DNA of 37,572 bases, taken from contig JAEESG010000004.1 of the NCBI GenBank assembly GCA_016286245.1, positions 1 through 37,572 of the forward strand, given 5' to 3'. The position numbers and the translations under genes were made by a program. This document shows, piece after piece, positions 2,829 to 33,874 of the stretch. This DNA comes from Clostridiales bacterium (GTDB lineage: Bacteria > Bacillota > Clostridia > Oscillospirales > CAG-382). A model generated the notes under the pieces. The model was given only the letters and a program-made list of their open reading frames with translations, had not been told where the DNA came from and made no database searches. Numbering within the stretch: the first letter of the stretch is position 1; the number at the start of each line of letters is the position of its first letter.

Positions 2829-2892
2829 TTTATTTTTACATACAAAAAGCATTCCGCAAAAGTAAGGTACTATTAAGGACAGTTAATGAAAA

Positions 2893-2937
2893 CCGGCTGA
2901 GTAAGGAACAAAATCCTTATTTCAGCCGGCCTTTTTT
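2893..2937 (+). terminator. Rho-independent terminator of mreC
   Basis: CCGGCTGA-gTAAGGA-loop-TCCTTAt-TCAGCCGG followed by CCTTTTTT. Confidence 0.85.
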
Positions 2938-2947
2938 AGTATATCGG

Positions 2948-3189
2948 AACAGGCAGGGAATTTGTACTGCAAATTCCATAGTGAAATCTTTTGCCCTTCG
3001 GCAAAAGGTGAAATCAACGGTTTGCGCCGTTGATGAAATCGAACGCTGATGCGTTCGGTGAAATAAAATCCACCCACTCGCCGTAAAGGCGAATTTCACT
3101 GTCCGCAGGGCAATTTCACCGCCGCAGGCGATTTCACCCACCCTGAAAGGGTGGATTTCGCTGCCGACTGTCCTTTGGAACAGTCGGCA
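2948..3189. repeat. Mirror-symmetric hairpin array 1, linker TGAAATC (4 forward / 4 reverse linkers, 9 hairpins)
   Basis: Hairpins 2957-2977, 2988-3007, 3015-3032, 3040-3057, 3078-3092, 3100-3112, 3120-3130, 3138-3154, 3162-3189; linkers TGAAATC/TGAAATA at 2982, 3009, 3034, 3059 then reverse (G)ATTTC(A) at 3093, 3113, 3131, 3155. Long-range arm AAATCCACCC (3066-3075) / GGGTGGATTT (3149-3158). Confidence 0.85.
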
Positions 3190-3217
3190 AATGCTGAATG
3201 CTTTCTTTTTTGCTTTT

Positions 3218-13214: not shown

Positions 13215-13289
13215 TGGGGCGTCGCCAAGCGGTAAGGCACCGGACTTTGACTCCGGCATTCGCTGGTTCGAATCCAGCCGTCCCAGCCA
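13215..13289 (+). tRNA. tRNA-Gln (anticodon TTG)
   Basis: TGGGGCG-TC-GCC..GGC-CCGGA-CTTTGAC-TCCGG-..GCTGG-TTCGAAT-CCAGC-CGTCCCA-GCCA; encoded CCA. Confidence 0.95.
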
Positions 13290-13478
13290 TGCAAAATGCA
13301 CTGCGAAAGCAGTGCCTTTTGCAATGAAGACGCCCGCAAGCGGGCTAATGAAGGAATGAAGACGCTTCGCTAATGAAGGAATTAAAACGAGGAAACGGGA
13401 AAAACGGGCGTCTTTACTTCATCAGCTGCGAAGCAGCGACTTCATTTTGCTTCATAAGGGCGGTACGCCCGACTTCAT
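13290..13478. repeat. Mirror-symmetric hairpin array 2a, linker ATGAAG (4 forward / 4 reverse)
   Basis: ATGAAG at 13324, 13348, 13356, 13373; CTTCAT at 13417, 13440, 13450, 13473. Hairpins 13298-13315 (inside TGCAAAA/TTTTGCA), 13332-13345, 13425-13437, 13458-13470. Long-range arm AAGACGCCCG (13327-13336)/CGGGCGTCTT (13405-13414). Confidence 0.85.
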
Positions 13479-13500
13479 TATTTCTCTAAATAATAAAATA

Positions 13501-13528: not shown

Positions 13529-13530
13529 CA

Positions 13531-13684
13531 ACGAAATCCGTCTTTAAGGACGGGAGAAATCGCATTCGCGGTGAAAACGCTTACGCGATGAAATCCGCAC
13601 TTCGTGCGGGTTAAAAGGACGGATTTTATTTCACCGGGCGTGAAACGCCCGATTTCACCAAAGACGCAAGTCTTTGATTTCACC
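13531..13684. repeat. Mirror-symmetric hairpin array 2b, linker TGAAATC (3 forward / 3 reverse)
   Basis: Forward GAAATC-type linkers at 13556, 13572 (TGAAAA variant), 13589; reverse ATTTCAC/GATTTCACC at 13628, 13651, 13676. Hairpins 13538-13553, 13561-13570, 13578-13587, 13595-13609, 13636-13650, 13660-13675. Long-range arm AAATCCGTC / GACGGATTT. Confidence 0.83.
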
Positions 13685-13717
13685 TGAGGACAAAGGCCGA
13701 AGATTTAACTATAAAGC

Positions 13718-33650: not shown

Positions 33651-33874
33651 CAGCTATCATTTCCCATTCCGAAAAAATCCGCAAGAAATCTTTCCGGCAC
33701 ATATTGCGAGGCCTTCCGGCAGCATTACCGGCGGTTCCACGACCGATGTTTAAGAAGTGATACCGTTTGAATACGGTTTTCAATATTCGCTGTCGCCCGT
33801 TTATCGGACATACTCCACGGAAATTCCCGGCATTACGCCGCAACCTCCCGCTTCATCGCACATCAAGCTTGAAT

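Follow-up and report, generated by a model that had tools for sequence, protein, structure and literature searches.

On comparison of its copies, positions 2861 to 3188 of the window (the whole stretch of 37,572 nucleotides that was analysed) are a 328-bp non-coding mobile element, one copy of many, in which the Gut-1 RNA lies on the minus strand. The reading that we consider very probable is that of a non-autonomous transposable element that inserts into the loop of a terminator with a 3-bp duplication, and whose body is a structured module of ~182 nt that acts in the folded state.

The starting point was an array of hairpins (array 1) between two convergent genes, mreC and a livF-like gene; the former matched above its NCBIfam cut-off, and livF was the best match for the latter, below that model's cut-off. 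The original prediction described nine consecutive hairpins at 2948-3189, with linkers that invert at the centre, and the linkers are indeed found in these positions: TGAAATC starts at 2982, 3009 and 3034 and TGAAATA at 3059, followed by the inverted forms ATTTCA from 3093, 3113 and 3131 and ATTTCG from 3155. The pattern TGAAATC-gap-TGAAAT occurs seven times in the window, against 0.11 expected. RNA folding of 2940-3195 gave -111.3 kcal/mol on the plus strand, compared with -72 ± 5.1 kcal/mol for shuffled sequences (z -7.75), and -116.0 kcal/mol on the minus strand, compared with -73.4 ± 4.5 kcal/mol (z -9.5); the fold thus lies 7.8-9.5 SD below shuffles and 0 of 200 shuffles equalled its stability on either strand. 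The proposed non-coding and highly structured nature of the region is borne out, as no ORF of at least 100 aa is present in 2861-3188. A CRISPR array was considered and rejected, since the repeats invert at the centre and the intervening segments are palindromes common to the copies.

The array itself was placed properly but its limits were too narrow. The genome contains a second copy, G000:C122, which is 96% identical to array 1 and shares with it both the hairpins and the left flank up to GGTACTATTAAGGACAGT; both ends recur in copies from other genera at unrelated loci, so the unit is 2861-3188. The terminator-like hairpin at 2893-2929 (CCGGCTGAGTAAGGA/TCCTTATTTCAGCCGG, then CCTTTTTT on the plus strand), which had been taken for a separate mreC terminator, belongs to the 3' shell of the element, because it is common to copies at unrelated loci (G000:C122, L063, L119, L140 and L185-L187). 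A further shell hairpin, GGAATTTG/CAAATTCC, occupies 2957-2977, where other copies have GACGTTTGGCACACAAACGTC, and one shell was found with four different interiors. On the minus strand, the 5' terminal inverted repeat (3162-3188) is itself a hairpin (GCCGACTGTTCC/GGACAGTCGGC) and aligns with the 3' repeat at 2861-2883 (core AAGGACAGT); these repeats of ~23 bp are imperfect, with 10-18 of 24 positions identical across 17 copies and 12 of 24 in the window copy.

The sister-genome comparison that had been proposed for the mreC-livF junction yielded an empty site. In one genome of the same genus, G003 (contig C152), the junction lacks the element and an intact bidirectional terminator, AAAGCATTCCGATTTTTCGGAATGCTTTTTT, is found; in G001 mreC is not adjacent and the livF terminator is intact there too. 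The two arms that adjoin in G003 still stand on either side of the element in the window, the left arm AAAGCATTC at 2846-2854 and the right arm GAATGCTTT, followed by CTTTTTT, at 3196-3204, and can pair with each other. It is apparent that the array does not replace a conventional livF terminator, as was suggested, but that a bidirectional terminator was split by the insertion. In the 17 copies for which both ends are available, the mean stem formed by the flanking arms is 8.7 bp, compared with 6.5 bp, and 0 of 2000 permutations reached this value. A perfect flank stem of at least 7 bp is present in 12 of these copies, but also in 44% of mismatched flank pairs on account of A and T runs, and the evidence for arm pairing is therefore the permutation and not this count. 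The element is bounded by AAA at 2858-2860 and, as read off the sequence, at 3189-3191. In the 17 copies, the three bases ahead of the element recur behind its other end at this single register, with matches at 36 of 51 positions, compared with 19.8 when permuted (0 of 1000); of the 48 combinations of length and offset examined, the nested windows at this register alone stood out. Some of the copies are kin by descent (L186, L263), so that the permutation figures overstate their independence, and searches for the empty sites of L185 and L186 revealed deletions or an orthologous insertion instead of clean empty sites. Judged by its sequence, 2861-3188 has the anatomy of a DNA transposable element, for which we infer the enzyme, and comparison of the copies makes its mobility well supported.

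We propose that a DDE-type transposase supplied in trans would move the element, and that terminator loops may be a safe site for its insertion because it carries terminator-like hairpins itself. In about 1.3 Mb of DNA that was searched, neither an autonomous copy nor a transposase gene with the ends of the window element was found. A pattern search for autonomous copies matched 4 of 396 genomes; the pattern used corresponds to the related GCAGTGTCC ends and not to those of the window element. Among the matches, G099 contains two related elements with arrays, and in G078 a related 5' end is accompanied by a degraded array; reading of the flanks, without a profile search, revealed no transposase next to the hits. 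The recurrent protein families near arrays included no common transposase, being transporters, XRE regulators and the like, and the arrays had no match in plasmid and phage collections. The genome's sole Y1/IS200 transposase was rejected as the mover, its ends being unrelated. The related elements of G099 (L225, L319) have the ends GCGCAGTGTCCTNAAGGACA and carry a TGAAAT-class module, and L225 again lies between terminator arms.

Insertion into palindromes has precedents. IS1397 targets palindrome loops and generates a duplication of a few bases. The window element also inserts in the loop of a hairpin-forming target, but its targets are intrinsic terminators of varying sequence and not REP elements, and, being non-coding, it lacks the IS3-family transposase of the IS1397 type. 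IS1397 and ISKpn1, of the IS3 family, and IS621, of the IS110 family, are the insertion sequences described in REP elements (PMC1525189). The element resembles a MITE in being short and non-coding, with terminal inverted repeats, a target duplication and several copies at unrelated loci, but differs in its interior, which is an exchangeable, ordered structured module and not an evident deletion product of a transposon.

That interior contains a known RNA. The Gut-1 covariance model (RF01706) scores 67.4 bits at 3088-3163 on the minus strand, above its gathering cut-off of 50, and 41.3 bits at 2979-3069 on the plus strand, below it. (Elsewhere in the window, 33793-33865 on the minus strand is an S10-Clostridia ribosomal protein leader, RF03136.) The original description of Gut-1 is of a 77-nt RNA, seen in environmental sequence only, to which no function was assigned (Weinberg et al. 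2010, PMC2864571). The window match is a member by score, with hairpins that have UGAAAU between them, but here those 77 nt are the first part of a mobile two-half module of ~182 nt. In the window the module spans 2981-3162 (minus strand), with seven hairpins and the linkers GTGAAAT in the first half and ATTTCAC in the second. The same layout, in which hairpins alternate with a linker X in one half and its reverse complement X' in the other, was found for seven linker classes, represented by TGAAAT, TTATGA, TGATGA (with a TGATG form), GCGATAT, GTGATATT, TATATCATCA and TGAAGT, with X at about 1, 24, 43 and 63 and X' at about 98, 122, 146 and 170; two classes have three full copies in the first half, not four, and in the L187 copy the second half is partly degraded. 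The classes were chosen by eye and afterwards checked by script. On two of them, GCGATAT and TGAAGT, the Gut-1 model scores barely above its cut-off (50.8 and 50.2). Many of the loci, having been retrieved by their TGAAAT centre, do not form a random sample, and the host genomes are mostly fragmented metagenome assemblies in which many copies stop at contig edges.

Among 34 distinct interiors of the TGAAAT class, most hairpin positions retain a stem while its sequence changes: stems are 4.1-6.0 bp, compared with 2.1-3.4 bp for shuffled sequence, and at each position 12-24 different stem sequences occur. Selection may thus act on pairing and not on sequence. The left arm of the first hairpin (CCACCC-loop-GGGTGG on the minus strand, 3138-3154) has two complementary partners, its own right arm and a segment at the centre; in the window this central copy of the right arm, GGGTGGATTT at 3066-3075 on the minus strand (inverted repeat I6), can pair with 3149-3158. 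The first arm was found again at the centre in 30 of the 34 elements, compared with 1 and 3 of 34 for controls, and the three arms change jointly, as in CCACCC/GGGTGG/GGGTGG, TTGCCC/GGGCAA/GGGCAA, CCGTCC/GGACGG/GGACGG and AAATCCC/GGGATTT/GGGATTT. Unlike the first, the second and third hairpins display no joint change with a central copy.

Since the linkers of the two halves are reverse complements, the halves could zip together by pairing of X with X', which would leave a hairpin projecting at every junction; an alternative fold would close the first arm on the central copy of its partner. The predictions for five elements favour pairing of the linkers without proving the exact ladder, because unpaired linkers cost 19-31 kcal/mol relative to the best fold, and the zipped ladder is itself 0-12.5 kcal/mol less stable than that fold. 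The ladder is the predicted minimum in just one of the five, and 12.5 kcal/mol above it in the window copy. A compensated linker pair, GTGAGAT/ATCTCAC, is found in L062 at the predicted register, and linker variants are compensated in some elements only. The module would work as a folded single strand, either as RNA produced by readthrough from the gene upstream or as single-stranded DNA; the strand comparison of stem mismatches gave 5 G.T versus 2 A.C.

The same interior classes are also found in elements whose insertion point lies precisely between a tRNA gene's CCA end and the terminator of that gene. Of 67 such TGAAAT elements, 40 start 0-1 nt after a tRNA in the sense orientation, with 16 isotypes represented. 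An empty site is present at tRNA-Gly, and the dinucleotide CA is common to both ends of these elements. The right end of this second vehicle was found in 45 of 297 genomes of the order, from 30 genera. Since it also follows closely on serine recombinase genes in L300 and comes after an apparent recombinase remnant in L299, these elements are probably moved by a large serine recombinase, a conclusion that does not apply to the window's element. The latter shares the interior module but sits between mreC and livF and not after a tRNA CCA end, without CA bounds, and the right end GAATTCATACGC..ATATCTTTTT..TAG has no match in its genome, G000. These comparisons indicate that in many gut Clostridia the same structural module is found in two or more kinds of vehicle that are unrelated to each other.

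Further observations concern the window and other loci. Directly behind the tRNA at 13215-13286, two elements stand apparently in tandem: an array with TGAAG linkers at 13287-13500, and at 13529-13712 a second TGAAAT-class array (Gut-1 strand plus), which is 70% identical to array 1, has different terminator-like end hairpins and resembles the second-vehicle type. At the tRNA-Gly loci L237, L238 and L249 the stretches downstream of the tRNA finish with a repeat of that tRNA's 3' end (for example TCCCGTCGCTTGCTCCA), which would fit a further tRNA-targeting element at these sites. Positions 1-8000 of L300 (G179:C28) form a larger element that ends with the second vehicle's right end; it contains three serine recombinase genes, identified by Pfam, as well as genes that on reading resemble regulators and MazF. 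Upstream of the same right end, L122 2789-7350 encodes a TOTE primase-helicase and a DUF6036 nucleotidyltransferase, and L160 2030-4905 a 459-aa protein without a Pfam match and a DUF2513 protein, possible defence cargo in both cases.

The module could instead be cargo with a function, as a small RNA or RNA switch, and not merely the body of a selfish element, a reading to which we give a substantial chance, somewhat short of even. It draws on the entry of Gut-1 in Rfam as an sRNA, on the single layout kept in two unrelated vehicles and seven linker classes, on the two mutually exclusive partners of the first arm and on the protein cargo, such as the TOTE primase-helicase, of the second vehicle's relatives, whereas no sigma-70-like promoter was found near the module. 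Rather unlikely, in our view, is that a DNA-binding protein, for example a transposase, binds at the linkers, whose inversion between the two halves would recall the subterminal repeats found in some transposons; the hairpins would then be incidental. The linkers are nearly invariant within a class (GTGAAAT in 208 of about 228) and inverted towards the centre, and pairing by itself needs no such uniformity, but incidental hairpins do not fit with stems that are kept with many different sequences or with the joint change of the first arm, its local partner and the central copy, and several linker classes share one genome and also one shell. A stack of ordinary terminators or a REP/BIME-like cluster without mobility, which the hairpin make-up and the position between convergent genes might suggest, is very improbable given the empty site, fixed ends, inverted repeats and duplication register; in addition, REP/BIME would be expected to have one conserved palindrome, not the variety of stems seen at each hairpin position. 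A decayed coding gene can practically be dismissed, in view of the missing ORF, a fold far beyond shuffles and a layout that is retained while the sequence is replaced.

In the literature searched, there was no description of these arrays, nor of Gut-1 as part of a mobile two-half module. Beyond the transposable element itself, we suggest tentatively, and with more doubt than confidence, that the Gut-1 module may be a new class of portable folded nucleic acid, in which two halves recognise each other via a class-specific linker, with a bistable first arm and at least two unrelated vehicles across gut Clostridia, perhaps as an RNA with a class-specific partner. By the present analysis the Rfam orphan Gut-1 is reassigned to a widespread mobile element, which indicates that its curated 77-nt model is a fragment, and the loops of intrinsic terminators join the known palindromic targets of mobile elements. 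The seven linker classes, with one plan and nearly every base replaced, may be regarded as a natural experiment on the purpose of the fold.
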